The notes below the pieces were generated by a model that was not told where the DNA came from, did no database searches, and saw only the letters and a program-made list of their open reading frames with translations. Positions 12 to 16,598 of a stretch of 64,000 nucleotides of DNA are shown here, in pieces. The stretch spans positions 1 through 64,000 of the forward strand of contig JAAXXK010000010.1 of NCBI GenBank assembly GCA_013334525.1. Direction: 5' to 3'. The position numbers and the translations under genes were made by a program. Every line of letters starts with the position of its first letter. The stretch's first letter is position 1. Source of the DNA: Chlorobiaceae bacterium (GTDB taxonomy: Bacteria > Bacteroidota > Chlorobiia > Chlorobiales > Chlorobiaceae).

Positions 12-404
12 ATGCATTACCAGAACGCCGAAGAGGTACTTTCACGCTGGATATCCGGAATCTGCACAGGCGCCATCGACGAAGTCGAAAGCCTTTATCA
101 TGAGCATGCCGTGCTTATCCCGACATTTTCACCTCACACCGTCAACACAACCCAGGGCATAAGGCAGTATTTCGATCAGCTTGCCACCAGGGACAAGATC
201 CAGGTCAGGCTTTATGACAAATCACTGAAAAAACAATTTCTGGGTGGCGAATCATGGATGCTGAGCGGCATCTACGCATTCGAGTTTGAGGTTGACCAGC
301 TCCTCCTGACATTTCCCTCACGGTTCACCTTCGCCGTAGATCTGGCCAATGAAAAGCCGATTGTCCACCACCACTCCTCACAGGTTCCAAGAAACCTCTC
401 CTGA
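12..404 (+). CDS. SnoaL/NTF2-like protein (CaMKII association-domain type)
   Basis: A 130-residue single-domain protein with the alpha+beta pattern of the NTF2/SnoaL superfamily. It has an N-terminal amphipathic helix (EEVLSRWISGICTGAIDEVESLY), a central GIRQYFDQL helix, and a C-terminal strand ending in IVHHHSSQVP. That His-rich ending is typical of the CaMKII association-domain/SgcJ-like subgroup. Members of this fold bind small hydrophobic ligands or act as isomerases; the substrate cannot be told from sequence. There is no signal peptide, so it is probably cytoplasmic. A long perfect hairpin follows the stop codon, so it is probably the last gene of its transcript. The family call is fairly secure and the function is unknown. 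Confidence 0.75.
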   Translation: MHYQNAEEVLSRWISGICTGAIDEVESLYHEHAVLIPTFSPHTVNTTQGIRQYFDQLATRDKIQVRLYDKSLKKQFLGGESWMLSGIYAFEFEVDQLLLTFPSRFTFAVDLANEKPIVHHHSSQVPRNLS

Positions 405-904: not shown

Positions 905-909
905 ATGCA
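854..909 (+). promoter_or_regulatory. Conserved 56-nt leader at the start of cassette 1
   Basis: This block aligns without gaps to 5722-5777 (44 of 56 positions identical by eye) and runs into the start codon of the afsA-like gene. Both begin with aacaagctct and end in gcactcagtRcgatgca. No Shine-Dalgarno motif is present, so the conserved block may carry the translation-initiation or core-promoter signal. Confidence 0.45.
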
Positions 910-1825
910 GAAATCGAGCACACGCGAGGAGATAACGGAGGAAAACATTAGCCTCAATCCTGGCGAACCGCCATATACATTGCTGTTCGAAGGTGACATC
1001 CCTCCTTTGACCGCTGGTGTGCGGCAAGTAGTTACTGTAGAAACTGTTGAAGATGCGGTCCTCTTTCTGAAACTACTCGGTGATTTTTGCGAGCTCCATA
1101 TCTCCGCTGAATACCGTTTATCCTATCCGGAAATCGATACGCAGGTCCGTGCGCTTTCCGCCATGAACCACACCGACGAAGCTCCGTTTGATACGGAAAC
1201 GGCTGCAGCTCTTTTGCGAAAGCTGCCCCTCGACCTGAATAGCCTTGTAAAAAGCCATATTGCCTTAAGAGATGGGGATAAGCTTCCATCCCTCATCAAA
1301 ATGAATCTGGTACATAAAACCAGCGATGAGAATGTTCTGATTTCAGAGCCGTTCTCAACCGGATGGATCCACTATTTCAACATGTACCAGGAAACAAAAG
1401 AACTGACCTTCGACCACCCGTCAGAGCATGTTCAGGGCCTGCTCATAAGCGAAGCACTTAGACAAGCCGGCATTGCGTGTGCACACATTCAGGGACTTCC
1501 GGCAGTAGGAAAACTTGTCCTGTTGAACTACAGCACAAATTTCTACAGCTTCATTGAACGCAATGAGCCCATAATACTCAGGGCATACAGTAGCTTTACT
1601 GCAAATGAGACAAGCGAAGACAAAAATGCATCATTCTTTATTCAGGTCATGCAGTGGGGTCGGGTATGTGCTGATTCAGCGATTACAACATTTGCCTGCC
1701 TGAGCATTGAGCGCCAGAAGCAGTTGAATAAACGTCTTGAAAAAATTGAATCGAGAAACAAAGCGCATTTCGAAACAAAAGTCAGTAAGATTCTTGAATC
1801 GGAGTCAGCAAACGGATGCGTGTAG
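905..1825 (+). CDS. AfsA-type hotdog-domain protein, putative autoinducer synthase (cassette 1)
   Basis: A 306-residue protein, first gene of the cassette. Residues ~135-265 carry the AfsA/ScbA (A-factor biosynthesis hotdog) signature: LVHKTSDENVLISE, then EALRQAG at 183-189, then GLPAVGKLVLLNYSTNF. In Streptomyces AfsA joins a beta-ketoacyl chain to a glycerol-derived C3 unit in gamma-butyrolactone synthesis. Canonical AfsA has two hotdog repeats. The first ~130 residues here lack the VHK...EALRQA signature and match nothing I recognise. The stop codon lies 10 nt inside the next gene. Making a diffusible signal read by the downstream kinase is inference from domain and context; the family call itself is well supported. 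Confidence 0.7.
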   Translation: MQKSSTREEITEENISLNPGEPPYTLLFEGDIPPLTAGVRQVVTVETVEDAVLFLKLLGDFCELHISAEYRLSYPEIDTQVRALSAMNHTDEAPFDTETAAALLRKLPLDLNSLVKSHIALRDGDKLPSLIKMNLVHKTSDENVLISEPFSTGWIHYFNMYQETKELTFDHPSEHVQGLLISEALRQAGIACAHIQGLPAVGKLVLLNYSTNFYSFIERNEPIILRAYSSFTANETSEDKNASFFIQVMQWGRVCADSAITTFACLSIERQKQLNKRLEKIESRNKAHFETKVSKILESESANGCV

Positions 1826-3129
1826 CAGTTATCGGAGGGGGAATCTCGGGAATTGCCTCTGCATATTATCTCAAGCAACGCAATATCGCTGTAGACCTTT
1901 ATGAATCTGCGGAACATATCGGCGGGAGAATCGGCAGTGAGCTGTTGCTTGAACGTTGGGTAGATTTCGGAGGCAAAAACATCGGTAGCCATTACCGCCT
2001 CTTCCGGGAGTTCGCCAGGGTATGCGGAAATCCCGAATTCGAGTACTTCGGCATAAACACATCGCAACTGGTTAATGGCAGGGTGATCGGAATCAGCAAG
2101 GAGGGTGCCCGGCGCTTCAATATGCTCAGGATGATGAGCCTTTGCGGGGTTGACGGAGTCTGCAAACTCTATCCCCATGCAAGGACCATTCTTAAGGATC
2201 GACGGCAGGGGGTGCTGGGGAGCGAATATTTCACCAGGATTGCCGACCGGTACGACCATCTTACTCTTGCCGACTACCTGAAAAAGCGGTGCGTCAATCA
2301 TGTGGTAAGACCGATAACCATCAGGATGAACGGTGCAGAACCCGATGAATGTTATCCCGGGAATTTCGGTTCGAACCTTGCCCTTGCCCTTGACAGTTAT
2401 GAGCAACTCCGGAAGGGTATGCACAGCCTGCTTGATGCAGTTCGGTTTATGAGTGGACCGGGTTTGCTCAGGATTTCAGAAGGGCACCAGGTAACCTCGA
2501 TATCGAACGATTCAGCGACAGGGTTGGTTCGCATTGGATACGTTTACAAAGGACAGGCCGACACAGCGGTCTATGACCGGGTTATTTCAGCGCTGCCGGC
2601 TCTCCGACTGGCTTCAGTACTGGAGGAGAACCAGCCCGAAGCCGCGAGCCTGCTTCGACAGATCCGATACTTTCCTGTCGCTGTCGCAATAGTGAAATAC
2701 CAAAACGAAGTGTTTCGGAAAAACCGGCGGGCGATGGTGTTCGATCAATCCTTTCCCCTGAGCAACGTCGGTGCGTACGGCATCAATGATCTGGATCTTG
2801 TACGCTATACTTTCAGCGGCAGGGTTTCAAGATCGCTGGTTTCCGAAAACTCCAGGGCGGAAGAGGTTATAGGTCTTGGAGAACAGATCGCCTCTCCTTA
2901 TTTTTCGTTGGAGAAAAACCCAAGGGAGGCTTTCGTATATCGATATCTTGCCGAGGGCTTGTGCGCGTACTCTTCACGACACCACATGCTTCTCGAAAAG
3001 ATTGATCGGGCTCTTGGTAATATCAAAGATTTTGCGGCCACCGGAGACTATCGCCGTGGCGCCTCGATTGAGGCCTGCTTCAGGGCCGCCCTTGAATGTG
3101 TTGACAAAGTAATTGGAGTTCCACCTTGA
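1816..3129 (+). CDS. FAD-dependent amine-oxidase-like oxidoreductase (cassette 1)
   Basis: A 437-residue flavoprotein of the amine oxidase/protoporphyrinogen oxidase superfamily. It opens with a dinucleotide-binding GGGISG motif (residues 7-12) and an acidic end to beta2 (DLYE). The GGRIGSE segment follows, and it closes with the FAD-contacting motif ATGDYRRGASIEACFRAALE. There is no signal peptide or membrane anchor. It overlaps the afsA-like gene by 10 nt and the kinase by 4 nt (TTGA), indicating one polycistronic, coupled unit. In this context it probably oxidises or desaturates the product of the AfsA-like protein (inference). No substrate can be assigned. Confidence 0.8.
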   Translation: MRVAVIGGGISGIASAYYLKQRNIAVDLYESAEHIGGRIGSELLLERWVDFGGKNIGSHYRLFREFARVCGNPEFEYFGINTSQLVNGRVIGISKEGARRFNMLRMMSLCGVDGVCKLYPHARTILKDRRQGVLGSEYFTRIADRYDHLTLADYLKKRCVNHVVRPITIRMNGAEPDECYPGNFGSNLALALDSYEQLRKGMHSLLDAVRFMSGPGLLRISEGHQVTSISNDSATGLVRIGYVYKGQADTAVYDRVISALPALRLASVLEENQPEAASLLRQIRYFPVAVAIVKYQNEVFRKNRRAMVFDQSFPLSNVGAYGINDLDLVRYTFSGRVSRSLVSENSRAEEVIGLGEQIASPYFSLEKNPREAFVYRYLAEGLCAYSSRHHMLLEKIDRALGNIKDFAATGDYRRGASIEACFRAALECVDKVIGVPP

Positions 3130-5252
3130 AGGCTATATCTCACTTTCGGGAATTCATCAAGGACGGCACCGTAATTGCTCGCTCCAATACGCTTGCTGTA
3201 GCCGTTTTCGGCGCGCCGGCTCATTTCCTGTTTTACTTCCTCTTCAAATATGGCTTCAATCTTCCGTACGAAAGCTTTGCGCTTCGCCTGACCGCATCCC
3301 TGCTCTGCCTTAGCGCCTTGTTTAAATCAAAACTGCCGGAAGCGCTACAGCCCTATTTCACATTCCACTGGCACCTGTCGATGATCTTTGTGCTGCCGTT
3401 CATCTTCACGGTCAACCTGATCATGAACAACTTTCATGAGCTATGGCTGTACTGGGAAATTTTCATGGTGTTCGTGCTGATCATGTTCGTGCCCCACTGG
3501 GTGATGTTTTTTTTCGATCTCTGCATCGGAGTCCTTGGCGCGATCCTGTTTTGCATGGTTTCGAACCCCAACCTCCAGCTTCACCCGACCTTCAACATCC
3601 CGCTCTACTCGATCGTGTTCGTTTTTTCGATATTTGTCGGCTACGCCTTCAGCTTCAGTAACTGGCAAAGCATGAAAAACGAAGAGAGACGGAAAGCGGA
3701 GGAGAAAAACCTGGCCCTGCAGGCCCTGGCTGGCGGAATTGCCCATGAGATGCGCAATCCCCTCGGCCAGATCCGCCACAACCTCGACGAGATCCTTCAG
3801 GAACTGCCGGCGAGCACTTCAGACAGCACATACGCACCGGTTACGGCAAAGAACATCGAAACCATCAACAAGCGGGTTGCACAGGCGCATATGGCCCTCA
3901 ACCGAGGGTTGCACGTCATCGATATGACTCTTGGAAATTTCAGGAACGACGATGTTTCCCGGGAGGACTTCAACTGCCTGTCCGCTGCGGCCGCAACCCG
4001 CAAGGCGATCGACGAATACGGTTATGCATCGGAGCATGAACGCCAGCTTATTCATCTCGAATCAAGCGACGATTTTATGTTCAGGGGGGATGAGAACAGT
4101 TACGTCCTTGTGCTATACAACCTTCTGGTCAATGCGCTCTATTTTCTCCAGACCATACCCAACGGGCGCCTGGATATCCGCCTTGAACAGGGTGAGGCCG
4201 TCAACAAAATTTTCGTCAAGGATAATGGGCCGGGCATTTCATCAGATAACCTATCCAAGATATTCGACCCATTTTTCACCACGGGGAAAAAAGGCGGCAC
4301 GGGCCTGGGGCTTGCCTTCTGCAGACGCATCATCCGCTCTTTCGGTGGAGATATCATCTGCAATTCCGAAAAAGGAAAGTTTACTGAATTTGTCATGAGC
4401 TTCCCCGTGCTCGACAAATCCCTGATCGATGATTATGAAGCGAAGCTTTATGCCGAATACCGGCCTGCATTCCAGGGCAAAAGGCTTCTCCTGGCCGGAA
4501 GTTCGCCTGATAACCTTTCGATGATCAGGCGTCAGCTTATACCGTTCGGCATCTCGACCGATGAGGCTTCAGATGGAGCCCAGGCCATGAACATGATCGT
4601 GTCGAGCAGATATGACCTCCTGCTTGCCGACATCGACCTTCCCCTGATCAACGCCGCTGAACTGGCCCAGAAGATCAAGGAGATCGGCAAGGAGATGCCG
4701 GTGGTCGCCTATACCAGCTCGAAAAATCCTGTGCCGGGCAAAAAACTGGTGGAAACCTACGACATCGACACCTGGATTTCCATGCCCCCGGCACTTTCTG
4801 AACTGCTGTACGCACTGAAAACATCGCTCGAAACAGCCCGTGAAACGCTCAAGGAGTCATTGACCGGCAAAACGGTACTGGTTGTCGACGATCTTGATTT
4901 CAACCGCAGGGTCATCAAAACCATGCTCAACAAGCTCGGCGTAACGATTCTTGAGGCATCGGACGGCCAGGACGCGCTCGACAAGCTGAAAACACACCAT
5001 TGCGACCTGTTGATCATGGATATGAGAATGCCTGTGCTTGACGGTTTTGAGGCGACCAGGCGCATTCGTTCAGGAATAAGCACCTACCGCAGCATTCCGA
5101 TTCTCGGCATGAGCGGCAACCTGGATAATGCCTCATTGAAAATGGCCAGGCAATGCGGAATGACCGACTGCCTCATCAAGCCGGTCAAACTCAAGGAGTT
5201 CCTGCAGAAAGTCGGTTCCATGCTGAAGAACGAGCCCCCGATCGCCCTGTAA
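3126..5252 (+). CDS. CqsS-like hybrid sensor histidine kinase (cassette 1)
   Basis: 708 residues from a TTG start that overlaps the preceding TGA as TTGA. The same start fits all three paralogues. Six hydrophobic segments fill residues ~20-180 with almost no periplasmic loops, as in the alpha-hydroxyketone receptor CqsS. Next come HisKA (AHEMRNPL, His207), HATPase (NLLVNAL, DNGPGI, GTGLGL), a degenerate receiver (~445-560, lacking the acidic pair and the Lys) and an intact receiver (VVDD, Asp632 in MDMRMP, IKP). The order of domains and motifs such as TEFVMSFP match CqsS. It probably senses a lipophilic signal made by the two upstream genes. No phosphotransfer protein or regulator is encoded nearby. 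From codon 300 onward it is identical to the cassette 2 kinase. Confidence 0.85.
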   Translation: MKAISHFREFIKDGTVIARSNTLAVAVFGAPAHFLFYFLFKYGFNLPYESFALRLTASLLCLSALFKSKLPEALQPYFTFHWHLSMIFVLPFIFTVNLIMNNFHELWLYWEIFMVFVLIMFVPHWVMFFFDLCIGVLGAILFCMVSNPNLQLHPTFNIPLYSIVFVFSIFVGYAFSFSNWQSMKNEERRKAEEKNLALQALAGGIAHEMRNPLGQIRHNLDEILQELPASTSDSTYAPVTAKNIETINKRVAQAHMALNRGLHVIDMTLGNFRNDDVSREDFNCLSAAAATRKAIDEYGYASEHERQLIHLESSDDFMFRGDENSYVLVLYNLLVNALYFLQTIPNGRLDIRLEQGEAVNKIFVKDNGPGISSDNLSKIFDPFFTTGKKGGTGLGLAFCRRIIRSFGGDIICNSEKGKFTEFVMSFPVLDKSLIDDYEAKLYAEYRPAFQGKRLLLAGSSPDNLSMIRRQLIPFGISTDEASDGAQAMNMIVSSRYDLLLADIDLPLINAAELAQKIKEIGKEMPVVAYTSSKNPVPGKKLVETYDIDTWISMPPALSELLYALKTSLETARETLKESLTGKTVLVVDDLDFNRRVIKTMLNKLGVTILEASDGQDALDKLKTHHCDLLIMDMRMPVLDGFEATRRIRSGISTYRSIPILGMSGNLDNASLKMARQCGMTDCLIKPVKLKEFLQKVGSMLKNEPPIAL
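4023..5252 (+). repeat. 1,230-nt direct repeat, copy 1 (kinase output half)
   Basis: Identical by eye to 8891-10120, down to synonymous positions. The first difference going upstream is the Gly codon ggt versus ggc just before it. The repeat spans the ATPase domain and both receiver domains and stops close to the stop codon. Homology with a few mismatches continues ~20 nt into the 3' flank. This indicates recent duplication or gene conversion. Confidence 0.9.
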
Positions 5253-5772
5253 GAACCAACATGTGGACGGCCGTCCACTTGCCAACCCGCTGTCCTCCCC
5301 TGAAACAGATATCCCTTTCCGAACTCGCTGCAATATGCGTAAACATGCCTTTGTCCATAAAGCCCCCTCCCGAAACTGCCCGCTCCCCATTTACGCTTCA
5401 GAATTTGAGTGAAATAATGTTGAAAGGATTGTCGCGTCCATAATACTATCCATCCCTCGTCTCTTTAATTATTCCACTCTTTTTTTACGGACATATCAAG
5501 CAACACAAAATACAATTGCACTCCCGTGTAAAATCTCGAAGACAAAGACGATCAATTCTCTTTGAGAATGAGTATTAATCCGCACCGCGTTATTACATCT
5601 TTTTTACTTGTATTTATACTGTACTTTCACTATAATTGATCGAACATATACAGCTGATCTTGAATGATTTTTGACTGACAAGCCCCAATGACCGTAAGGT
5701 CGAAACCCATATCTGACTGATAACAAGCTCTCGAATCGAGGATTTGCTCTCCACCTAAATGCACTCAGTGCG
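5253..5772. other. Intergenic region upstream of cassette 2
   Basis: No gene is seen. The stretch 5453-5660 is AT-rich and is the likely promoter region of cassette 2. A short hairpin sequence gaccgtaaggtc lies near 5690-5702. Part of the region resembles the cassette 1 upstream DNA (an attgatcga block in both, and the shared 56-nt leader at the 3' end). Confidence 0.45.
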
Positions 5773-5777
5773 ATGCA
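5722..5777 (+). promoter_or_regulatory. Conserved 56-nt leader at the start of cassette 2
   Basis: Ungapped counterpart of 854-909. Here the start-proximal part, gcactcagtgc, is a perfect 4-bp inverted repeat around tca directly before the ATG. No ribosome-binding motif is visible. Confidence 0.45.
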
Positions 5778-6684
5778 AAATATGAGTACCTACCATGAAA
5801 CTCCTGAGGCAGATCTCGCCATCAATATCAGCTCATCGGCATTTACACTGCTTTTCAAAGGGGACCGGCTCCCTCTGGGCGCAGATGAACAACAGGTAAT
5901 CATTGTAGAAACGGCCGAAGAAGCCTCCCGTTTCCTGGCCCTTCTTGGAGACTCCTGCAAACTCTACATCTCCCCCGAATACTGCTCAATGCACCCTGAA
6001 ATTGAAGCTAAGACACAAATACTTGCCAACGCAAACCACAGCTACAACCCTCCGTTCGATACGGATTTGGCTGTTGCCATGATGCGGAAGCTGCCACTTG
6101 ACCTGAAAAGCCTTACAAAAAGCGCCCTTGCCTTAAAGGAAGGGGGAAAAATGCCCCCACTCATCAATAAAGAGCTGGTGCATAAATCCAGCGATAGCAA
6201 TGTTCTTATTTCAGAACCATTTACTACCGGATGGCTTCATTATTTCAACATGTTTCAGGAAACAACAGAGCTCACCTTCGACCACCCATCAGAGCATATT
6301 CAAGGCCTGCTCCTGAGCGAAGCCCTGAGACAGGCCGGAATAGCATGTACCCACCTTCAGGGACTCCCGATCGAGGGGAAACTTGTCCTGTTGAACTATA
6401 GCACGAATTACTTCAGCTTTATTGAGCGCAATGAGCCCGTTGTACTCCGGGCTTACAGCTGCTTCAACGCCAATGAGGGCAGCCAGGACAAGAACGCCAC
6501 ATTCTTTATTCAGGTTTTACAATGGGGGCGTATATGTGCTGACTCAAAAGTCACAACGTTCGCTTGTATGAACACAGAGCGTCAGCAGCAATTGAATAAC
6601 CGCCTGGAAAAGATAGCATCGAGAAACAAGGTACATTTCGAATCAAAAGTCAACAGGCTACTCGAATCGGAGCTCGCAAATTGA
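5773..6684 (+). CDS. AfsA-type hotdog-domain protein, putative autoinducer synthase (cassette 2)
   Basis: 303 residues, paralogue of the protein at 905-1825. The AfsA hotdog half is highly conserved between the two (LVHKSSDSNVLISEPF, SEALRQAGIACTH, GKLVLLNYSTNYFSFIERNEP). The N-terminal ~130 residues differ more. If both are synthases, the diverged N-terminal part or small pocket changes could give different products. The TGA stop shares one base with the ATG of the next gene (TGATG), so translation is probably coupled. As for the first copy, the AfsA family call rests on motif recognition and the signalling role on context. Confidence 0.7.
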   Translation: MQNMSTYHETPEADLAINISSSAFTLLFKGDRLPLGADEQQVIIVETAEEASRFLALLGDSCKLYISPEYCSMHPEIEAKTQILANANHSYNPPFDTDLAVAMMRKLPLDLKSLTKSALALKEGGKMPPLINKELVHKSSDSNVLISEPFTTGWLHYFNMFQETTELTFDHPSEHIQGLLLSEALRQAGIACTHLQGLPIEGKLVLLNYSTNYFSFIERNEPVVLRAYSCFNANEGSQDKNATFFIQVLQWGRICADSKVTTFACMNTERQQQLNNRLEKIASRNKVHFESKVNRLLESELAN

Positions 6685-7997
6685 TGCGTGTCGCAATCAT
6701 CGGAGGAGGAATCTCGGGAATTGCAACGACATCCTGGCTGATGCAACGCAATGTCACCGTCGATCTCTATGAATGTGATGAACAGATCGGTGGCAGAATC
6801 GGCAGCGAACTCCTGCTGAACAGATGGGTGGATTTTGGAGGTAAAAATATCGGGAAACACTACAACCATTTCCGCGACTTTGCCTCAGCCTGTGGCGATC
6901 CCGAATTCGAATACTTTGGGTTCAACACTTCACAACTGGTAAATGGCCGGATCATTACCATCACCAAGGAGGGCGCCCGCTGGTTCAACATGTTCAGAAT
7001 GATGAGCCTGTGCGGCATAGACGGTATCAGGAAGCTGTATCCACATGCAAAAGCTATTATTGACGACAGACAGCAGGGAGTACTCGGCAGCGAATACTTC
7101 AGAAAGATTGCAGAGCGATATGACCACCTGACTCTTGCCGGCTACCTGGAAAAAAGATGTCTCGATCATATAGCCAGACCGGTAACCGTCCGGATGAACG
7201 GTGCAGAACCCGATGAATGTTATCCCGGGAATTTCGGTTCGAACCTTGCCCTCGCCCTTGACAGCTATGAGCAACTGAAGCATGGCATGCACAGCCTGCT
7301 TACTGCCTTCAGGGCGATGGAAAAAAAAGAAACATTAACAATTCTCGAAGGGCGCCGGGTGACCTCGATATCGAACGATTCTTCCACAGGCATGGTTCGC
7401 ATAGGATACGTTTATGAAGGACAGCCGTCTACAGCCGGCTATGACCGGGTTATTTCAGCGCTGCCGGCTCTCCGGCTGGCTGCCGTCCTGGAGGAGACCC
7501 TGCCGGAAGCGGCAAACCTGCTCCGTCAGATCCGGTACTTCCCTGTCGCTGTCGCAATAGTGAAATACCGAAACGAAGTGTTCGGGAAATCCCGGCGGGC
7601 GATGGTGTTCGATCGATCCTTTCCCTTGAGCAACGTCGGGGCTTACGGCATCAACGACCTGGATCTGGTACGCTATACTTTCAGCGGCAGGGTTTCAAGG
7701 TCAACCATTTCCGAGCACTCTTTACCTGAACAGGTTATAAGCCTTGGAGAACAGATCGCCTCTCCATATTTCTCCATACGCGACAACCCGAGAGATGCAT
7801 TCACCTACCGTTACCTTCCCGAGGGCCTCTGCGCATACTCGTCCAATCATCATTTACTGCTCGAGAAAATCTATCTGGAACTCGGGCGCATTTCCGGCTT
7901 TGGCGCTACCGGGGACTATCGGCGCGGAGCTTCCATCGAGGCCTGCTTCAGAGCGGCCAAAGAATGCGTTGAAACCCTGTTCGGAGAGCCGAGTTGA
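6684..7997 (+). CDS. FAD-dependent amine-oxidase-like oxidoreductase (cassette 2)
   Basis: 437 residues from the ATG at 6684, chosen because it gives the same N-terminus (MRVAIIGGGISG) as the cassette 1 copy; a TTG one codon earlier is possible. The Rossmann GGGISG, GGRIGSE and C-terminal ATGDYRRGASIEACFRAAKE motifs are all intact. It shares long nucleotide-identical patches with 1816-3129, for example ~50 nt around 2334/7201 and ~36 nt around 2574/7440, amid more diverged stretches. Such a mosaic suggests repeated gene conversion between cassettes. It probably modifies the product of the upstream AfsA-like protein (inference). Confidence 0.8.
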   Translation: MRVAIIGGGISGIATTSWLMQRNVTVDLYECDEQIGGRIGSELLLNRWVDFGGKNIGKHYNHFRDFASACGDPEFEYFGFNTSQLVNGRIITITKEGARWFNMFRMMSLCGIDGIRKLYPHAKAIIDDRQQGVLGSEYFRKIAERYDHLTLAGYLEKRCLDHIARPVTVRMNGAEPDECYPGNFGSNLALALDSYEQLKHGMHSLLTAFRAMEKKETLTILEGRRVTSISNDSSTGMVRIGYVYEGQPSTAGYDRVISALPALRLAAVLEETLPEAANLLRQIRYFPVAVAIVKYRNEVFGKSRRAMVFDRSFPLSNVGAYGINDLDLVRYTFSGRVSRSTISEHSLPEQVISLGEQIASPYFSIRDNPRDAFTYRYLPEGLCAYSSNHHLLLEKIYLELGRISGFGATGDYRRGASIEACFRAAKECVETLFGEPS

Positions 7998-10120
7998 AGG
8001 TAATATCCCACTTGAGCGAATTCATCAAGGACGGCACCCTGATTGCCCGCTCCAATACACTTGCTATCGCCAAGGTCGGAGCCCCAGCCCATTTTTTCTT
8101 TTACTTTCTCTTCAGTTACGGCTTTCATCTCCCCTATGAAAGCCTTTCGCTTCGCCTTATCGCCTCATTGTTGTGCCTGAGCGCCCTGATCAAGTCGAGG
8201 CTGCCCGCGACCATTCAACCATACTTTCCTTATTACTGGCACTTTTCCATGATATTTGTACTGCCGTTCATCTTCACGGTAAGCCTTATCATGAACAACT
8301 TTCATGAGCTATGGCTGTACTGGGAAATTTTCATGGTGTTCGTGCTGATCATGTTCGTGCCCCACTGGGTGATGTTTTTTTTCGACCTCTGCATCGGAGT
8401 CCTTGGCGCGATCCTGTTTTGCATGGTTTCGAACCCCAACCTCCAGCTTCACCCGACCTTCAACATCCCGCTCTACTCGATCGTGTTTGTTTTTTCGATA
8501 CTTGTCGGCCATGCATTCAGCTTCAGCAACTGGCAAAGCATGAAAAACGAAGAGAGACGAAAAGCGGAGGAGAAAAACCTGGTCCTGCAGGCCATGGCAG
8601 GAGGCATCGCCCATGAGATGCGCAATCCCCTCGGCCAGATCCGCCACAACCTCGACGAGATCCTTCAGGAACTGCCCCAGAAAAATTCCGCTAACGATGC
8701 AGTACAGGTCACGCCAGCGAACATCATGACCATCAACAAACGGGTAGCCCAGGCGCAGATGGCCCTCAACCGAGGGTTGCACGTCATTGATATGACTCTT
8801 GGAAATTTCAGGAACAACGATATTTCACTGAGGGACTTCAACTGCCTGTCCGCTGCGGCATCAACCCGCAAGGCAATCGACGAATACGGCTATGCATCGG
8901 AGCATGAACGCCAGCTTATTCATCTCGAATCAAGCGACGATTTTATGTTCAGGGGGGATGAGAACAGTTACGTCCTTGTGCTATACAACCTTCTGGTCAA
9001 TGCGCTCTATTTTCTCCAGACCATACCCAACGGGCGCCTGGATATCCGCCTTGAACAGGGTGAGGCCGTCAACAAAATTTTCGTCAAGGATAATGGGCCG
9101 GGCATTTCATCAGATAACCTATCCAAGATATTCGACCCATTTTTCACCACGGGGAAAAAAGGCGGCACGGGCCTGGGGCTTGCCTTCTGCAGACGCATCA
9201 TCCGCTCTTTCGGTGGAGATATCATCTGCAATTCCGAAAAAGGAAAGTTTACTGAATTTGTCATGAGCTTCCCCGTGCTCGACAAATCCCTGATCGATGA
9301 TTATGAAGCGAAGCTTTATGCCGAATACCGGCCTGCATTCCAGGGCAAAAGGCTTCTCCTGGCCGGAAGTTCGCCTGATAACCTTTCGATGATCAGGCGT
9401 CAGCTTATACCGTTCGGCATCTCGACCGATGAGGCTTCAGATGGAGCCCAGGCCATGAACATGATCGTGTCGAGCAGATATGACCTCCTGCTTGCCGACA
9501 TCGACCTTCCCCTGATCAACGCCGCTGAACTGGCCCAGAAGATCAAGGAGATCGGCAAGGAGATGCCGGTGGTCGCCTATACCAGCTCGAAAAATCCTGT
9601 GCCGGGCAAAAAACTGGTGGAAACCTACGACATCGACACCTGGATTTCCATGCCCCCGGCACTTTCTGAACTGCTGTACGCACTGAAAACATCGCTCGAA
9701 ACAGCCCGTGAAACGCTCAAGGAGTCATTGACCGGCAAAACGGTACTGGTTGTCGACGATCTTGATTTCAACCGCAGGGTCATCAAAACCATGCTCAACA
9801 AGCTCGGCGTAACGATTCTTGAGGCATCGGACGGCCAGGACGCGCTCGACAAGCTGAAAACACACCATTGCGACCTGTTGATCATGGATATGAGAATGCC
9901 TGTGCTTGACGGTTTTGAGGCGACCAGGCGCATTCGTTCAGGAATAAGCACCTACCGCAGCATTCCGATTCTCGGCATGAGCGGCAACCTGGATAATGCC
10001 TCATTGAAAATGGCCAGGCAATGCGGAATGACCGACTGCCTCATCAAGCCGGTCAAACTCAAGGAGTTCCTGCAGAAAGTCGGTTCCATGCTGAAGAACG
10101 AGCCCCCGATCGCCCTGTAA
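7994..10120 (+). CDS. CqsS-like hybrid sensor histidine kinase (cassette 2)
   Basis: 708 residues from a TTG overlapping the preceding stop as TTGA. The architecture equals the cassette 1 kinase: six TM segments, HisKA with His207 in AHEMRNPL, HATPase, a degenerate receiver and an intact receiver. Residues 1-~100 (TM1-3) differ from copy 1 at about a third of positions. Residues ~100-205 are almost identical but include Tyr173 to His in the last TM segment. A short linker after HisKA differs (QKNSANDAVQV). Everything after codon ~299 is identical. The pattern suggests two receptors with distinct ligand preference feeding one output. Confidence 0.85.
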   Translation: MKVISHLSEFIKDGTLIARSNTLAIAKVGAPAHFFFYFLFSYGFHLPYESLSLRLIASLLCLSALIKSRLPATIQPYFPYYWHFSMIFVLPFIFTVSLIMNNFHELWLYWEIFMVFVLIMFVPHWVMFFFDLCIGVLGAILFCMVSNPNLQLHPTFNIPLYSIVFVFSILVGHAFSFSNWQSMKNEERRKAEEKNLVLQAMAGGIAHEMRNPLGQIRHNLDEILQELPQKNSANDAVQVTPANIMTINKRVAQAQMALNRGLHVIDMTLGNFRNNDISLRDFNCLSAAASTRKAIDEYGYASEHERQLIHLESSDDFMFRGDENSYVLVLYNLLVNALYFLQTIPNGRLDIRLEQGEAVNKIFVKDNGPGISSDNLSKIFDPFFTTGKKGGTGLGLAFCRRIIRSFGGDIICNSEKGKFTEFVMSFPVLDKSLIDDYEAKLYAEYRPAFQGKRLLLAGSSPDNLSMIRRQLIPFGISTDEASDGAQAMNMIVSSRYDLLLADIDLPLINAAELAQKIKEIGKEMPVVAYTSSKNPVPGKKLVETYDIDTWISMPPALSELLYALKTSLETARETLKESLTGKTVLVVDDLDFNRRVIKTMLNKLGVTILEASDGQDALDKLKTHHCDLLIMDMRMPVLDGFEATRRIRSGISTYRSIPILGMSGNLDNASLKMARQCGMTDCLIKPVKLKEFLQKVGSMLKNEPPIAL
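8891..10120 (+). repeat. 1,230-nt direct repeat, copy 2 (kinase output half)
   Basis: Identical by eye to 4023-5252; see that entry. A tandem pair 4,868 nt apart in direct orientation could recombine and delete or duplicate one whole cassette. Confidence 0.9.
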
Positions 10121-10427: not shown

Positions 10428-10523
10428 TCAGGAGTAATAGTTGACTATGGCAGGAAAACGTTAATCGAGAACTGTTTCCGGGTAGTGGGCTTCGAATGCA
10501 CCGACAAAGCAATTGGAGATTGA
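10428..10523 (+). pseudogene. Relic of the 3' end of a third FAD-oxidoreductase gene
   Basis: Read in frame up to the TGA at 10521-10523, this stretch encodes DYGRK..LIENCFR..ECTDKAIGD-stop. It aligns with the C-terminus of the cassette 1 flavoprotein, DYRRG..SIEACFR..ECVDKVIG. Nucleotide similarity is highest at gacaaagcaattggaga, against gacaaagtaattggagt in copy 1. No upstream part of the gene survives in frame. The relic sits exactly where the FAD gene would precede the kinase, so kinase 3 is the survivor of a third cassette. Confidence 0.75.
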
Positions 10524-10525
10524 CC

Positions 10526-12652
10526 TTGAAGATCATATCTCAATTAAGGGAGTTCATCGACGAAGGCACGGTGATATCGCGGTCCAATATTCTGGCGACC
10601 GGATTTCTTGGCGGACCTGCCCATATTTTTTTTTATTTCCTCTACAAGTATTGGTTCCCCCTTCCCTACGAGAGCTTTGCCCTTCGGCTTACCGCATCGC
10701 TGCTTTGCCTGAGCGTGTTGTTCAAGTCACGCCTCCCGAAGGCCATGCAACCATATTTCCCCCTGCAATGGCATTTTGCCATCATCTTTGCCCTGCCATT
10801 TATCTTTTCAGTCAACCTGATCATGAACAACTTCAATGATCTATGGCGGGACTCGGAAATCTGCATGGTTTTCATACTGATCATGTTTGTGCCTCACTGG
10901 GTAATGTTTCTTATAGATCTCTGCATAGGAGTTCTCGGGGCTATACTGTTCTGTATGATTGTAAACCCCCTGGTTCAGGTCAACACAAACTTCAACATCC
11001 CGCACTATGTGATCGTAATCATCTTTTCAATAGTCGCAGGCTCTGCTTTCAGCTTCGTCAACCTGAAAAGCATCAAAAACCAGCAGAAACGGAAAGCAGA
11101 AGAGAAAAACCTTGCCCTCCAGGCCCTCGCAGGCAGCATTGCCCATGAGATGCGCAACCCTCTCGGCCAGATCCGTCTCTACCTCAATGAGATCATGCAG
11201 GATTTGCAGCGAAACGGTTTCGACAGCGCTGACCCTGCCGTCAGGCTAAAAAACAGTGAATCGATCACCCAACGCCTGGCAAAGGTCCAACTGGCGCTTA
11301 ACCGGGGGTTGCACGTCATCGATATGACTCTTGGAAATTTCAGGAACGAAGAGATCCCAAAGGAGGATTTACCCCTCCTTTACGCTGCAACCGCCACACG
11401 CAAGGCGATCAACGAATATGGTTATGCATCGGAGCATGAACGTCGGATGATTCATTTCAAGTCAAGCCAGGACTTTATGTTCCGGGGCGATGAAAACAGT
11501 TACGTCCTGGTACTCTATAACCTTCTGGTCAACGCCCTGCATTTTCTCCAGGAAACTCCGGATGGTCGCATCGATATTCGCATGGAAAAGAGTGAGACCA
11601 ACAACATGCTTTATGTGAGGGATAACGGTCCAGGCATTCCACCGGAGAACATCACCAAAATCTTCGATCCATTTTTCACCTTTGGGAAAAAAGGGGGAAC
11701 CGGACTTGGACTCGCGTTCTGCAAACGGATAATGCGCTCTTTCGGTGGAGATATCACCTGCAATTCCGAGAAGGGAAAGTTTACCGAATTTGTCCTGAGC
11801 TTCCCGTTGCTCGACAAAGCACTGATCGATGACTACCAGGCAAAGCTCTACGCGGAATACCAACCGGTTTTTTCCGGAAAACGGGTTCTGCTCGCAGGAA
11901 CATCCCCTGAAAACATTGCCATAATCCGACGTGAACTGACACCATTCAGCATCGGAACCGATTATGCTTCCGATGGAACCCAGGTAATGAACATGGTCGT
12001 TTCGAACCCATACGATCTGTTGATCGCCGACATCGACCTCCCCTTGCTCAACGCTGCCGAACTGGCAAAAAAAATCAAGGGACTCGGCAAGGAGATACCT
12101 GTCGTCGCCTATACCACTTCGAATCCTCAGACTCCAGAAAACAAACTTCTGGAAACCTACGACATTGATACGTGGATTTCCATGCCGCCGGCACCTTCTG
12201 AACTGCTCTTTGCGTTGAAAACCTCTTTCCAGACGACCCGAAAAACCCTGAAGAAATCGCTGAACGGCAAAACGGTGCTGGTCGCCGATGACCTGGATTT
12301 AAACCGCAAGCTCATCAAGTCGATGCTTAACAAGCTTGGAGTAACGATACTTGAGGCATCAGATGGACTGGTAGCGCTCGACATGCTGAAAAATCATGAC
12401 TGCGACATGTTGATCATGGATATGAGGATGCCTGTTCTCGACGGCATGGAGGCCACAAGGCGTATCCGGTCAGAAATCAGCACCTTCCGCAACATACCGA
12501 TTCTCGGCATGAGCGGCGATCTGGATAATGCCTCACTGAAAATGGCTAAACAGATCGGCATGAACGACTGCTTCATCAAGCCGATCAAGCTCAAGGAGTT
12601 CCTGCAGAAAGTCTCCGCCATGCTGCAGAGCGATACGCCCATGGCACCATAA
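10526..12652 (+). CDS. CqsS-like hybrid sensor histidine kinase, orphan third copy
   Basis: 708 residues from TTG 10526, the start homologous to the other two copies. An ATG at 10496 would add ten residues, but those codons fall in the FAD-gene relic. All functional parts are intact: six TM segments, His207 in AHEMRNPL, HATPase boxes, a degenerate receiver, and a second receiver with VADD, MDMRMP and IKP. It is more diverged than copies 1 and 2 are from each other (residue 173 is Ser), so it is older or outside the gene-conversion pair. Having no synthase of its own, it may listen to the signals of cassettes 1 or 2 (inference). Confidence 0.8.
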   Translation: MKIISQLREFIDEGTVISRSNILATGFLGGPAHIFFYFLYKYWFPLPYESFALRLTASLLCLSVLFKSRLPKAMQPYFPLQWHFAIIFALPFIFSVNLIMNNFNDLWRDSEICMVFILIMFVPHWVMFLIDLCIGVLGAILFCMIVNPLVQVNTNFNIPHYVIVIIFSIVAGSAFSFVNLKSIKNQQKRKAEEKNLALQALAGSIAHEMRNPLGQIRLYLNEIMQDLQRNGFDSADPAVRLKNSESITQRLAKVQLALNRGLHVIDMTLGNFRNEEIPKEDLPLLYAATATRKAINEYGYASEHERRMIHFKSSQDFMFRGDENSYVLVLYNLLVNALHFLQETPDGRIDIRMEKSETNNMLYVRDNGPGIPPENITKIFDPFFTFGKKGGTGLGLAFCKRIMRSFGGDITCNSEKGKFTEFVLSFPLLDKALIDDYQAKLYAEYQPVFSGKRVLLAGTSPENIAIIRRELTPFSIGTDYASDGTQVMNMVVSNPYDLLIADIDLPLLNAAELAKKIKGLGKEIPVVAYTTSNPQTPENKLLETYDIDTWISMPPAPSELLFALKTSFQTTRKTLKKSLNGKTVLVADDLDLNRKLIKSMLNKLGVTILEASDGLVALDMLKNHDCDMLIMDMRMPVLDGMEATRRIRSEISTFRNIPILGMSGDLDNASLKMAKQIGMNDCFIKPIKLKEFLQKVSAMLQSDTPMAP

Positions 12653-12817: not shown

Positions 12818-15484
12818 ATGTACAGGAACATCTCGGATTACGGAATTATAGGAGACATGCGCTCTGCGGCACTTGTCTCCATTGACGGCTCTATCGATTA
12901 TTGCTCCCTGCCCTGGTTCGACTCCCCAACGATCTTCGCATCGCTGCTTGACGACCAGAAGGGGGGCTTTTTCAGCATCAATCCATCCGCAACGTTCACT
13001 TCGAGCCGTGAATACGTAACCGGAACCAACATTCTCTCATGCGCCTTTACAACAAACGACGGCCATGCGACGCTTCACGATTTCATGCCTGTCGAAAACA
13101 GCCTCCTTCCCCAGCGTCCCCAGGGAATTCACCGCTGCCTCAGTGTCGATAGCGGCAGTATGGAGTTTGTCCTGAACCTGGCGCCCCGGCCCGGCTACGG
13201 GATGCAGAAACCCGTTGTCATCGAGGAGGGCGGGCGGTTTTCGTTCACTGAGATCACCCCTTCGCTATACCTCCTGCTGACGGCGCAGGCCTGGAAAGCC
13301 GAAGGCATCGGCAGCGACAGCCTTAGACTGACCTTTACCCTGCAAAAAGGCGAATCTGCGCATTTCGACCTCGTGCTGGCGCCCCTGAATCTGGATGAAA
13401 CCCTTTCCTGCCCATTCCAGTCGACCAGGGCATACTGGGAAGAGTGGCTGCAAGTCTGCATCGGGCCTCGCTGTTCCTGGATCGGGGAGTTGACCCCCCT
13501 TATTCACCGCTCCCTGCTTGCCCTCAAGCTGCTCACCTTCCAGCCGACCGGAGCCATAGCGGCCGCCGTTACGACTTCGCTTCCGGAACTCATCGGAGGC
13601 GATAGAAACTGGGACTACCGTTTCACCTGGCTGAGGGATGCATCGTTTACCCTCAAGGCGCTCTTTTCGCTGGGACACATCAACGAGGCTGACCGTTTTA
13701 TCCGCTGGTTGCACCACATATACAGGGAAAACGGCAGCAGGAACCTCCAGATCATGTACTCAATCCAGGGCGAGCCCATGCTTGAAGAAAAATCCCTGCC
13801 GCATCTGGCCGGCTACAGGAACTCCTGGCCCGTCAGAACCGGCAACTCTGCCCAGGCCCAGAAGCAGTGGGACATTTACGGCGAGGTCATGGATGCGGCC
13901 CTGAGGCTTTCGGATTATGCAGGCAAGATCGACGACGATCTATGGCCGTTTTTCAGGGATATCTGCGAAATGGCAATGGAAAACTGGCGTCAGCCGGATG
14001 ACGGCATATGGGAGGTTCGCAACGGCCCTCACCATTTCGTCTATTCGAAAGTGATGTGCTGGGTGGCGCTCGACAGGGGCATAACCATCGCAGGAAGATT
14101 CGGATTCGACGCTCCGCTCGAACGATGGTCGAAAGAGCGTGATGCCATTAAATCAGAAGTCCTTTCCCGGGGGTTCAGCAGCCGGAGCAACAGCTTCGTA
14201 CAGCGATACGGTTCCGAGTTGCTCGACGCCAGCCTGCTGCTTTTGCCGCTGGTCAATTTCCTGCCGATATCGGACAGCCGCATACAGGGGACAATAGAAG
14301 CTTGCCGTAACGATCTCCTTCAGAATGGCTTCGTCAGGCGATACCTCGCTGATGACGGACTTGATGGAGAAGAAGGAGGGTTCGTGCTGTGCAATTTCTG
14401 GCTGATCGAATGCCTTGCGCTTTCCGGAAGGATCGAAGAGGCAGAAAAGCTCCTGGCCGTAACCATGGAGGCGTCCAACGATCTGGGGCTGTTCTCGGAG
14501 GAGTACGACCCGGATAAGGGCGAAATGCTCGGAAACTTTCCGCAGGCGTTCAGCCATATCGGCTATATCAATGCAGTAACGGCGCTACTTGCCGGCAAGG
14601 CCCCTGCCGAAACGCAGGACACTGAACTCTCACTGATGCAATGGCTTCAGCGGCTTATACCACTACAGCTCACGTTGAACAGCCCGGATGAGGGGAGTTT
14701 CGCCGAATCGCCGGAAAATATCGACGTCAGGCTCAAGAGTATGCTCGGCCGGCTTCAGGGAGCTTTTTTCGATACAAAGAAAGGAGTGGTCGACTACAGG
14801 GCCATGAAAAACTCAGGAAGCTTCCAGGACTACCGGCATCTGGCCGTTGCCCTTCACGGATTCGATCCCCTGAGCCTTGAGGGAGACCATGCATTGAAAG
14901 CCTTCTGGATCAACATCTACAATATCCTGATCATACACGGCGTCATCGCCCTCGATATCAGCCATTCAGTACTTGATATCGTCAACTTCTTCGGAAGAAT
15001 CGGGTACGATATCGGGGGCCGGTTCTACTCACCCGACGATATAGAACACGGCATACTGAGGAAAAACCGTTCCCATCCTGCTTTTCCGGTAAGGCCGTTC
15101 AGCTCTGACGACCCGAGGCTCCCTTATGTGGTAGGCACCTTCGATCCAAGAATCCATTTTGCCCTTGTCTGCGCCTCAAGCTCCTGTCCCCCGATCGAGT
15201 TCTATGATGCGGATAAAATTGACAGGCAACTCGACATCGCCGCTCGAAGCTTCATAAACCGCAACGGATTGGAGCTGGACAGGAAAAACGGTGAGATATG
15301 GTTGTCGAGGATCTTTCTGTGGTATGGGACAGATTTCGGATCATCGCCGCAGCAGGTGCTCGACTATATCCTGCCGTTCGCCGACCAGCAACTTCGTTCG
15401 GATATCGTCTCAGAGAGGCATCGTCTCCACATACGCTACCGCCCTTACAACTGGAACCTCAACAGTTCGCTGGGCCAGTTATGA
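12818..15484 (+). CDS. Glycoside hydrolase family 15 protein fused to a DUF547 domain
   Basis: 888 residues in two parts. Residues 1-~610 are a GH15 glucoamylase/trehalase-like protein. It has an N-terminal beta-sandwich (ISDYGIIGDMRSAALVSIDGSIDY), the motif GDRNWDYRFTWLRDASFTLKAL, IWEVR containing the presumed general acid Glu, and SEEYD with the second Glu. Residues ~620-880 are a DUF547 domain (FWINIYNILIIHGV, CASSSCPP). Single-domain GH15 proteins hydrolyse alpha-glucosidic bonds in starch, glycogen or trehalose; DUF547 has no settled function. There is no signal peptide, which points to intracellular glycogen or trehalose turnover. It stands alone downstream of the kinases with no coupling to them. 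Confidence 0.85.
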   Translation: MYRNISDYGIIGDMRSAALVSIDGSIDYCSLPWFDSPTIFASLLDDQKGGFFSINPSATFTSSREYVTGTNILSCAFTTNDGHATLHDFMPVENSLLPQRPQGIHRCLSVDSGSMEFVLNLAPRPGYGMQKPVVIEEGGRFSFTEITPSLYLLLTAQAWKAEGIGSDSLRLTFTLQKGESAHFDLVLAPLNLDETLSCPFQSTRAYWEEWLQVCIGPRCSWIGELTPLIHRSLLALKLLTFQPTGAIAAAVTTSLPELIGGDRNWDYRFTWLRDASFTLKALFSLGHINEADRFIRWLHHIYRENGSRNLQIMYSIQGEPMLEEKSLPHLAGYRNSWPVRTGNSAQAQKQWDIYGEVMDAALRLSDYAGKIDDDLWPFFRDICEMAMENWRQPDDGIWEVRNGPHHFVYSKVMCWVALDRGITIAGRFGFDAPLERWSKERDAIKSEVLSRGFSSRSNSFVQRYGSELLDASLLLLPLVNFLPISDSRIQGTIEACRNDLLQNGFVRRYLADDGLDGEEGGFVLCNFWLIECLALSGRIEEAEKLLAVTMEASNDLGLFSEEYDPDKGEMLGNFPQAFSHIGYINAVTALLAGKAPAETQDTELSLMQWLQRLIPLQLTLNSPDEGSFAESPENIDVRLKSMLGRLQGAFFDTKKGVVDYRAMKNSGSFQDYRHLAVALHGFDPLSLEGDHALKAFWINIYNILIIHGVIALDISHSVLDIVNFFGRIGYDIGGRFYSPDDIEHGILRKNRSHPAFPVRPFSSDDPRLPYVVGTFDPRIHFALVCASSSCPPIEFYDADKIDRQLDIAARSFINRNGLELDRKNGEIWLSRIFLWYGTDFGSSPQQVLDYILPFADQQLRSDIVSERHRLHIRYRPYNWNLNSSLGQL

Positions 15485-15536: not shown

Positions 15537-16598
15537 TCACCCGTCAAGCCTTGCCTGAAAATCCCTGAGCTGGGCCTCAATCGATTCGAGCTTCTCTTTC
15601 ATGGCGCCGATTCCACGAACGAGTGCCTCCTGGCGGAACTGGTCACGCATGAGCTGGGCCGGAATACCCCGGATGGCCTGGCCTGGCTGCGTAAAAGATT
15701 TGGAAATACCAGCCTTGGCCGCGACCGATGTCTTGTCGGCTATTTCAAGGTGACCGGCAAACCCGGCCTGTCCGCCAATCAGGCATTGGCGGCCTATTTT
15801 CACACTGCCGGAAATGCCTGCCTGGGAAGCGATAACCGTGTCCTCGCCGATCCGGCAATTGTGGGCAATCTGCACCAGATTGTCGATTTTCGCTCCTCTC
15901 TGGATGAGGGTCTTGCCCATCGTAGCCCTGTCGATGGTTGTATTGGCGCCGATTTCGACATCGTCCTCGATCTGAACGGTACCCATCTGGGGAATCTTGA
16001 TGTATGAGCCGTCCTTCTGGGGCGCGAAGCCGAAGCCGTCTGCCCCTATGACTGTGCCGCTGTGAACGGTAACGCGCTCACCGATCTCGGTGCCGTCATA
16101 GCAGGTGACCAGTGGAAACAGAATGCAGCCGCGGCCAATGGTCACATCGTGCATCAGCACCGTACCGGGGCCTATGACCGTATCGTCGCCGATGACGCAG
16201 CGTTCACCGATGACGGCATGGTCGCCGATGGAAACGTTCCGGCCAAGTGTTGCTGAAGGCGCCACTATTGCGGTAGGAGCCGTGCCCGGTGCAGAAACCT
16301 GGCGAGTGCCGGCAAACTGCTTGAGGATGAAGACGAACGCGGTATACGGGTCCTTCACTTTCAGGAAACTCTTCCCATCGACCCCATCGCCTACAGGGGC
16401 ATCAGTATTGACGATCAGCAGTGAAGCGTTGGTCTCTTCAATGAAACGGTAATATTTCTCGTTGGCCACGAAGCTGACCTGGCCGACACCGGCATCTTCG
16501 ATCTTCGCAGGTCCGGTGATAACGGTATCGCCGGGTCCAACCAGGTCGACAGGATCGAAATAGCGCCCGAGAAAAGCTTTTAAGTCTTCGATGTTCAT
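15537..16598 (-). CDS. lpxD: UDP-3-O-(3-hydroxyacyl)glucosamine N-acyltransferase LpxD
   Basis: 353 residues, the usual length. It catalyses the third step of lipid A synthesis, adding a hydroxyacyl chain from ACP to UDP-3-O-acylglucosamine. The N-terminal uridine-binding domain (residues ~1-100) is followed by a left-handed beta-helix of hexapeptide repeats (~105-310). The catalytic histidine lies in [18 protein letters not shown]-terminal helix ([19 protein letters not shown]) completes the protein. It is divergent from prs, with a shared 174-nt promoter region. Confidence 0.95.

Follow-up and report, generated by a model that had tools for sequence, protein, structure and literature searches.

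The 64,000-nucleotide stretch analysed here (the window; positions 1 to 64,000 of contig JAAXXK010000010.1, from a Chlorobiaceae bacterium) contains two copies of a three-gene unit. Each copy encodes an AfsA-like hotdog protein, a flavin adenine dinucleotide (FAD)-dependent oxidoreductase and a membrane histidine kinase of the CqsS receptor family (Table 1). We think it likely that this unit (AfsA-FAD-kinase) is self-contained and both makes and senses an acyl signal, with a two-enzyme module in place of the synthase usually found with such receptors. The unit and its exchange for other synthases at one genomic site are well supported; the signal chemistry is inferred.

We found that both ~300-residue proteins are AfsA-like, as had been predicted from the DNA letters and their translations alone (the original prediction). 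Each matched PF03756 far above the curated cut-off of 24 bits (copy 1, 121.5 bits, E 3.3e-35, residues 135-263; copy 2, 117.5 bits, E 5.6e-34). An AlphaFold2 model made from a 28-sequence alignment (pLDDT 83.5) had a C-terminal domain that matched FabZ and hotdog thioesterases in Foldseek (E ~1e-5). The family match and the hotdog fold, on which the original prediction had staked itself beforehand, were both found. Residues H171, E183 and R186 were invariant in 28 AfsA-like homologues. By motif, rather than by structure alignment, we take H171 and E183 to be the catalytic H/E pair of FabZ, and E-x-x-R to be the signature of AfsA.

The flavoproteins are amine-oxidase-like, again as proposed, and resemble protoporphyrinogen oxidase (PPOX). 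They matched PF01593 (copy 1, E 3.4e-17; copy 2, E 1.9e-16) and NAD_binding_8. The AlphaFold2 model (pLDDT 86.6) was nearest to PPOX (Foldseek E 5e-25, TM 0.76) and to monoamine oxidase (MAO). A housekeeping PPOX is disfavoured, because the flavoproteins did not reach the PPOX equivalog cut-offs and are strictly linked to a patchily distributed AfsA gene, a linkage judged at AfsA loci, with the flavoprotein not searched for apart from AfsA.

The kinases are hybrids of the CqsS type with a six-transmembrane (six-TM) sensor, HisKA and HATPase_c domains and two receivers (REC1 and REC2), and they are homologous to CqsS over its full length, which bears out the earlier assignment. Identity to a Vibrio CqsS (locus L137, beside a 48%-identical CqsA) was 27-29% over ~690 amino acids (aa; E 6e-73 to 1e-78). 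With a simple hydropathy cut, we counted five hydrophobic segments in the sensors of the two unit kinases (HK1 and HK2), four in that of a third kinase downstream (HK3) and six in the orthologue from genome G019. Because the sensor aligns with Vibrio CqsS along its whole length, six TM segments are well supported. H207 was conserved in all 54 kinases compared, and the DD, D and K residues of REC2 were intact; REC1 was degenerate in the window's genus. The original prediction had also stated that no CqsA-type synthase is present, and the whole genome (assembly 94% complete) contained no match to NF005526 at E <= 1e-60.

We found that the three genes occur together well outside this locus, which was the second condition that the original prediction had set itself. 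AfsA was encoded in 27 of 86 Chlorobiaceae genomes, and the order AfsA-FAD-kinase, on one strand, was present at every AfsA locus (27/27 genomes; in two, a contig end cuts off the kinase). The view that these synthase and receptor classes are not normally paired is correct where known systems are concerned. The pairing is nevertheless not specific to this locus, being a fixed feature in part of one bacterial family. AfsA was confined to two genera of Chlorobiaceae in a sample of 395 genomes from the phylum and in 98 genomes of the class. The AfsA and FAD trees split these two genera cleanly (support 100/99), consistent with inheritance within each genus. A plasmid-borne origin was rejected: there was no AfsA homologue among 72,556 plasmids. 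One contig scan, made with a single query protein, found only one close relative. The ratio of nonsynonymous to synonymous substitution (dN/dS) was 0.08-0.19 (0.19 for AfsA copy 1 versus copy 2), indicating purifying selection. Chance or annotation error as the source of the cassette was rejected on the basis of the domain matches, the recurrence of the gene order in 27 genomes and this selection.

The site of the unit in the window's genus is bordered on the left by an ompA-like gene and a SnoaL gene and on the right by lpxD. Seven relatives without AfsA had a homologous kinase at the same site, accompanied by CqsA (4 genomes) or by an S-adenosylmethionine (SAM) methyltransferase (3 genomes). 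The CqsA at this site was identified by NF005526 (E ~1e-179 in the two genomes tested). It is transcribed divergently, 0.5-0.9 kb from the kinase, which is also the arrangement in most canonical CqsA-CqsS pairs of the family. The site kinase was the sole CqsS-like receptor that the sensor search detected in these four genomes. CqsA-linked sensors from the site fall within the AfsA-linked group (99/99) and lie a long way from the canonical CqsA-linked receptors; in their sensor segments, AfsA-linked receptors and CqsA-linked receptors of the site were 50-62% identical. Canonical CqsA-linked kinases of Chlorobiaceae are ~850 aa long, are ~29% identical to the window kinase and carry a fused HPt domain (two tested).

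Two of the CqsA sites, and weakly a third, also retain a relic of the flavoprotein (C-terminal half), directly upstream of the kinase and on the kinase strand. At L115 the relic spans flavoprotein residues 216-433 (E 5.8e-13), with 6 bp separating its end from the kinase. The relic at L121 is frame-broken (E 1e-5), the match at L120 is weak (E 0.009; 8e-4 with a hidden Markov model), and at the L117 CqsA site no flavoprotein relic was found. Reversed flavoprotein queries, used as a control, gave zero matches. A search of the CqsA sites for an AfsA relic found none, only the flavoprotein relics. Because these relics lie beside the kinase, AfsA-FAD was most likely the ancestral synthase, and CqsA most likely displaced it while the receptor lineage stayed.

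We found that receptors at the methyltransferase sites are, by the phylogeny of their parts, chimeras of a foreign sensor half and a resident kinase core. Their sensors grouped with methyltransferase-linked kinases of the other genus (100/100), and the first 125 sensor residues alone gave the same grouping (100/100). Their kinase cores branched at two distinct points within the resident lineage of the site (site clade 100/100). Approximately unbiased (AU) tests rejected trees in which these cores were forced together with other methyltransferase-linked kinases (p = 1e-50) and trees in which the site's sensors were forced together (p = 1.5e-7). An identity scan placed the switch between sensor and core between residues ~125 and ~180, and the transferred part includes the first TM helices. 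In CqsS, the first TM helices carry ligand-binding motifs (PMC3376566). Since the sensor half moves with the synthase, sensor and synthase appear to be matched, which argues that the ligand of the neighbouring kinase is the product of the AfsA and FAD proteins. The chimeras are strong indirect evidence for this matching and suggest that the half travelling with the synthase is the part of the receptor that recognises the ligand. Together with the CqsA and methyltransferase substitutions at the locus and the flavoprotein relic, this exchange of sensors supports the synthesis-and-reception unit that the original prediction had put forward.

We propose the following mechanism. By analogy with its family, the AfsA-like protein would take a beta-ketoacyl thioester supplied by fatty-acid metabolism and condense it with a C3 compound, for example dihydroxyacetone phosphate (DHAP); PF03756 enzymes elsewhere convert a beta-ketothioester and DHAP to a phosphorylated butenolide (PMC7756379). 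The PPOX/amine-oxidase-like flavoenzyme would then oxidise or reduce the AfsA product to give the final signal, a fatty-acyl molecule that is probably of the butenolide type. Once it had entered the membrane, the signal would be recognised by the kinase's six-TM domain, mainly by the first half of that domain, as the exchange of sensors supports. Ligand state would alter the flow of phosphate from H207 to the REC2 aspartate, both of which are seen in the sequence, with REC1 being degenerate. The stretch from ompA/SnoaL to lpxD acts as an exchange site in the genus, at which CqsA most likely displaced AfsA-FAD with the receptor kept, and the methyltransferase came with a matching sensor half that was joined to the resident kinase core. 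On a modest balance of probability, we lean towards the view that an AfsA-type hotdog protein and a PPOX-like flavoenzyme make a signal of a new class, sensed by a membrane kinase of the CqsS family, and that the genes lie at a site that re-pairs one receptor scaffold with different synthases. Re-pairing would take either of two routes: the synthase is swapped under a kept receptor, or synthase and sensor half move together onto a resident kinase core.

Several observations weigh against this proposal. The AfsA-like protein has a single PF03756 domain, and its N-terminal ~130 residues are not hotdog in the model. Both copies missed the cut-off of the ScbA/BarX equivalog NF041195 (36.1 and 37.6 bits versus 200), with a match spanning only profile positions 169-268 of 290. 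Given the missed equivalog and the single domain, the substrate may differ from that of A-factor synthesis. The unit contains neither a phosphatase gene nor one for an ScbB-type reductase. There was no HPt domain (PF01627) in this genome (G000), G011 or G019, despite hybrid kinases that end in a receiver; a weak HPt match in G001 was dropped because of its location in a ribosomal operon (fusA/rpsG region). An AU test did not reject a single clade of all CqsA-linked sensors (p = 0.11), and on this point we rely on the flavoprotein relics. Finally, the genome surveys were confined to Bacteroidota.

Our results might also indicate, although we regard this as doubtful, a signal system whose product is not a butyrolactone or butenolide. 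The product could be, for example, a long-chain molecule resembling alpha-hydroxyketones or one derived from fatty acids, close to CAI-1. The hotdog protein would then serve as a thioesterase or dehydratase, and the dehydrogenase would be the flavoenzyme. The takeover by CqsA beside the same receptor lineage, with sensors as similar as those described above, would be easiest if the ligands were alike, and a single hotdog domain with a FabZ-like H/E pair, in a unit without an ScbB-like reductase, would fit such a product. These points have to be set against the strong PF03756 match, which includes the AfsA-type E-x-x-R, and against the condensation with DHAP carried out by the characterised enzymes of the family.

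It is unlikely that the AfsA-FAD product has another role (as a membrane lipid, pigment or antibiotic) and that the kinase regulates the operon in response to an unrelated cue. Operon linkage by itself would fit this explanation, but known members of the kinase family respond to what the neighbouring synthase makes (CqsS; PMC3285556), and this receptor lineage was re-paired with CqsA, which belongs to a dedicated family of autoinducer synthases. Furthermore, sensor halves track the type of synthase, and the unit contains no transporter or additional biosynthetic gene. An exchange without function, in which AfsA-FAD was lost by neutral decay, CqsA came to lie close by through coincidence and the kinase no longer senses a self-made signal, is quite unlikely. 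The divergent orientation of CqsA, its distance from the kinase and the indecisive AU test on CqsA-linked sensors are all compatible with it. However, four species have kept the CqsA-kinase pair, the kinase being intact and the only CqsS-like receptor found there, divergent genes are also usual in the canonical pairs, and sensor and synthase were exchanged together at the methyltransferase sites.

Judging from its genes, our preferred AfsA-FAD-kinase signalling unit would work like quorum sensing of the CqsS family, yet it matches neither CqsA/CqsS (no CqsA, no HPt) nor the A-factor system (single hotdog, kinase as receptor). Like the Vibrio CqsA/CqsS system, which uses CAI-1, it has a full-length CqsS homologue (six-TM, HisKA, HATPase and receiver) and a synthase gene that adjoins the receptor gene. 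Unlike that system, its synthase is AfsA plus a flavoenzyme rather than the pyridoxal phosphate (PLP) enzyme CqsA, its kinase has two receivers, the first degenerate, and no HPt or LuxU was found in the genome. With the A-factor system of Streptomyces (AfsA/ScbA and ArpA/ScbR), it shares a PF03756 synthase, the FabZ-like H/E pair and E-x-x-R. In contrast to A-factor synthesis, it has a single hotdog domain and a PPOX/MAO-type flavoprotein partner, its receptor is a membrane histidine kinase and not a cytoplasmic TetR-type repressor, and its hosts are green sulfur bacteria and not actinobacteria. No TetR-type ArpA gene was present in the units or their flanks (window 1-16 kb), where the neighbours are SnoaL, kinase, GH15 and lpxD genes.

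Two further systems are similar in part. The methyltransferase and membrane kinase at the site in three relatives resemble Ralstonia PhcB/PhcS-R-Q in gene arrangement, whereas the window itself has no methyltransferase at the site. A distant homologue of this methyltransferase is encoded on a Paraburkholderia graminis plasmid, beside a kinase and two response regulators. Legionella LqsA/LqsS/LqsR has the receptor superfamily and the alpha-hydroxyketone synthase family of CqsA/CqsS. Unlike Lqs, the window has no LqsA/CqsA, and we saw no LqsR-like gene beside the kinase, although none was specifically sought.

CqsA/CqsS has already been noted in Chlorobium and Prosthecochloris (PMC5289986, PMC10158934), and one strain is described there as having lost cqsA from a conserved locus. 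In the open-access literature that we searched, we found no report of AfsA or of butyrolactones in green sulfur bacteria, of AfsA together with a CqsS-type kinase or of synthase exchange at one site, and no experimentally studied cell-cell signalling in green sulfur bacteria. An old puzzle in quorum sensing is that a new signal-receptor pair needs synthase and receptor to change together. Here, at one site and with the same receptor lineage, related species have AfsA-FAD, CqsA with remains of the old synthase, or a methyltransferase with a transplanted sensor half. One receptor scaffold has apparently been re-paired with different chemical signals, and the question of how such pairs originate becomes directly testable in cultivable green sulfur bacteria. 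If our interpretation is true, AfsA-type signal synthesis extends beyond actinobacteria and is coupled to a membrane kinase.

We observed other CqsS-related kinases beside candidate synthases. In other Chlorobiaceae, a CqsS-related kinase of ~830 aa lies beside a fusion of a thioesterase-like hotdog domain and a leucine-carboxyl-methyltransferase (L122, 12818-14227; L132, 10105-11502; L133, 2879-4276); this kinase had a fused HPt in the one tested. The fusion and kinase are possibly another synthase-receptor unit. On a Paraburkholderia caribensis plasmid (NZ_CP013105.1; L135, 3921-7562), an enzyme like ketoacyl synthase III (KAS III), a different candidate synthase, is directly followed by a CqsS-like kinase (31% identity across 720 aa). 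Three CqsS-family receptors, with AfsA-FAD, methyltransferase and CqsA as their respective synthases, occur in a single genome in G040 (L037/L128/L156), G043 (L043/L129/L154) and G046 (L036/L127/L155).

The window contains two diverged copies of the unit plus one extra receptor, HK3. All six open reading frames of the original prediction were confirmed at their positions. Its range of 905-10120 was right for these six genes and missed HK3, the third homologous kinase. The overlaps it described (10 nt, TGATG and TTGA twice) were also correct, measuring 10, 4, 4 and 4 nt, with the ATG at 6684 giving TGATG. Overlapping junctions of the AfsA, FAD and kinase genes are kept in nearly all relatives. 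An HK3 orthologue follows a single unit in L031 and L039, and HK3 groups with HK1 and HK2 in the kinase tree. Similarly, in G005 a second kinase of the site type, with no synthase to itself, adjoins the methyltransferase unit (L116, 1590-3752). Extra receptors accumulate at the exchange site.

Table 1. Genes of the two units and their surroundings in the window
Feature	Position	Strand	Remarks
SnoaL/CaMKII_AD-like gene	12..404	+	PF08332, E 1.5e-10; equivalent position in relatives; left border of the genus exchange site
AfsA-like hotdog protein copy 1, 306 aa, putative beta-ketoacyl/DHAP condensing enzyme	905..1825	+	PF03756
FAD-dependent amine-oxidase/PPOX-like oxidoreductase copy 1, 437 aa	1816..3129	+	PF01593
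CqsS-family hybrid histidine kinase HK1, 708 aa	3126..5252	+	Six-TM sensor, HisKA, HATPase, REC1, REC2
AfsA-like hotdog protein copy 2, 303 aa	5773..6684	+	PF03756
FAD-dependent oxidoreductase copy 2, 438 aa	6681..7997	+	PF01593; start probably ATG at 6684
CqsS-family hybrid histidine kinase HK2, 708 aa	7994..10120	+	Domain matches; 3' end identical to HK1
CqsS-family hybrid kinase HK3, 718 aa, without an adjacent synthase of its own	10496..12652	+	
GH15/DUF547 fusion protein	12818..15484	+	Often right of the unit in relatives
lpxD	15537..16598	-	75% identical to L115 LpxD (PF04613); right border of the genus exchange site

The two copies of the unit differ except at the end of the kinase gene. 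AfsA copies 1 and 2 were 65% identical in amino acid sequence and the FAD proteins 77%, and the sensors have diverged too. HK1 and HK2 DNA is identical from gene nucleotide 898 to the stop codon (~1.23 kb), amid units that are otherwise diverged. This pattern suggests recent gene conversion of the kinase end or, less likely, an effect of assembly. That the two-copy structure is partly an assembly artefact is very unlikely: a 1.23-kb identical repeat is of the type that can confuse assembly, but AfsA, FAD and the sensors differ clearly between the copies (dS 0.5-1.2), each copy has its own flanks, and 26 other genomes have single-copy units.

The ~45 bases 5' of each afsA start (window ~857-904 and ~5725-5772) are alike in both copies and continue the reading frame, and no obvious ribosome-binding site is seen in them. 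Translation of afsA may really begin further upstream, or a leader element may lie there. In many genomes (L050, L051, L053, L058), the unit is followed by a gene for a GH15-DUF547 fusion. Several of them, L051 and L053 among these, have only a truncated or disrupted form of it.

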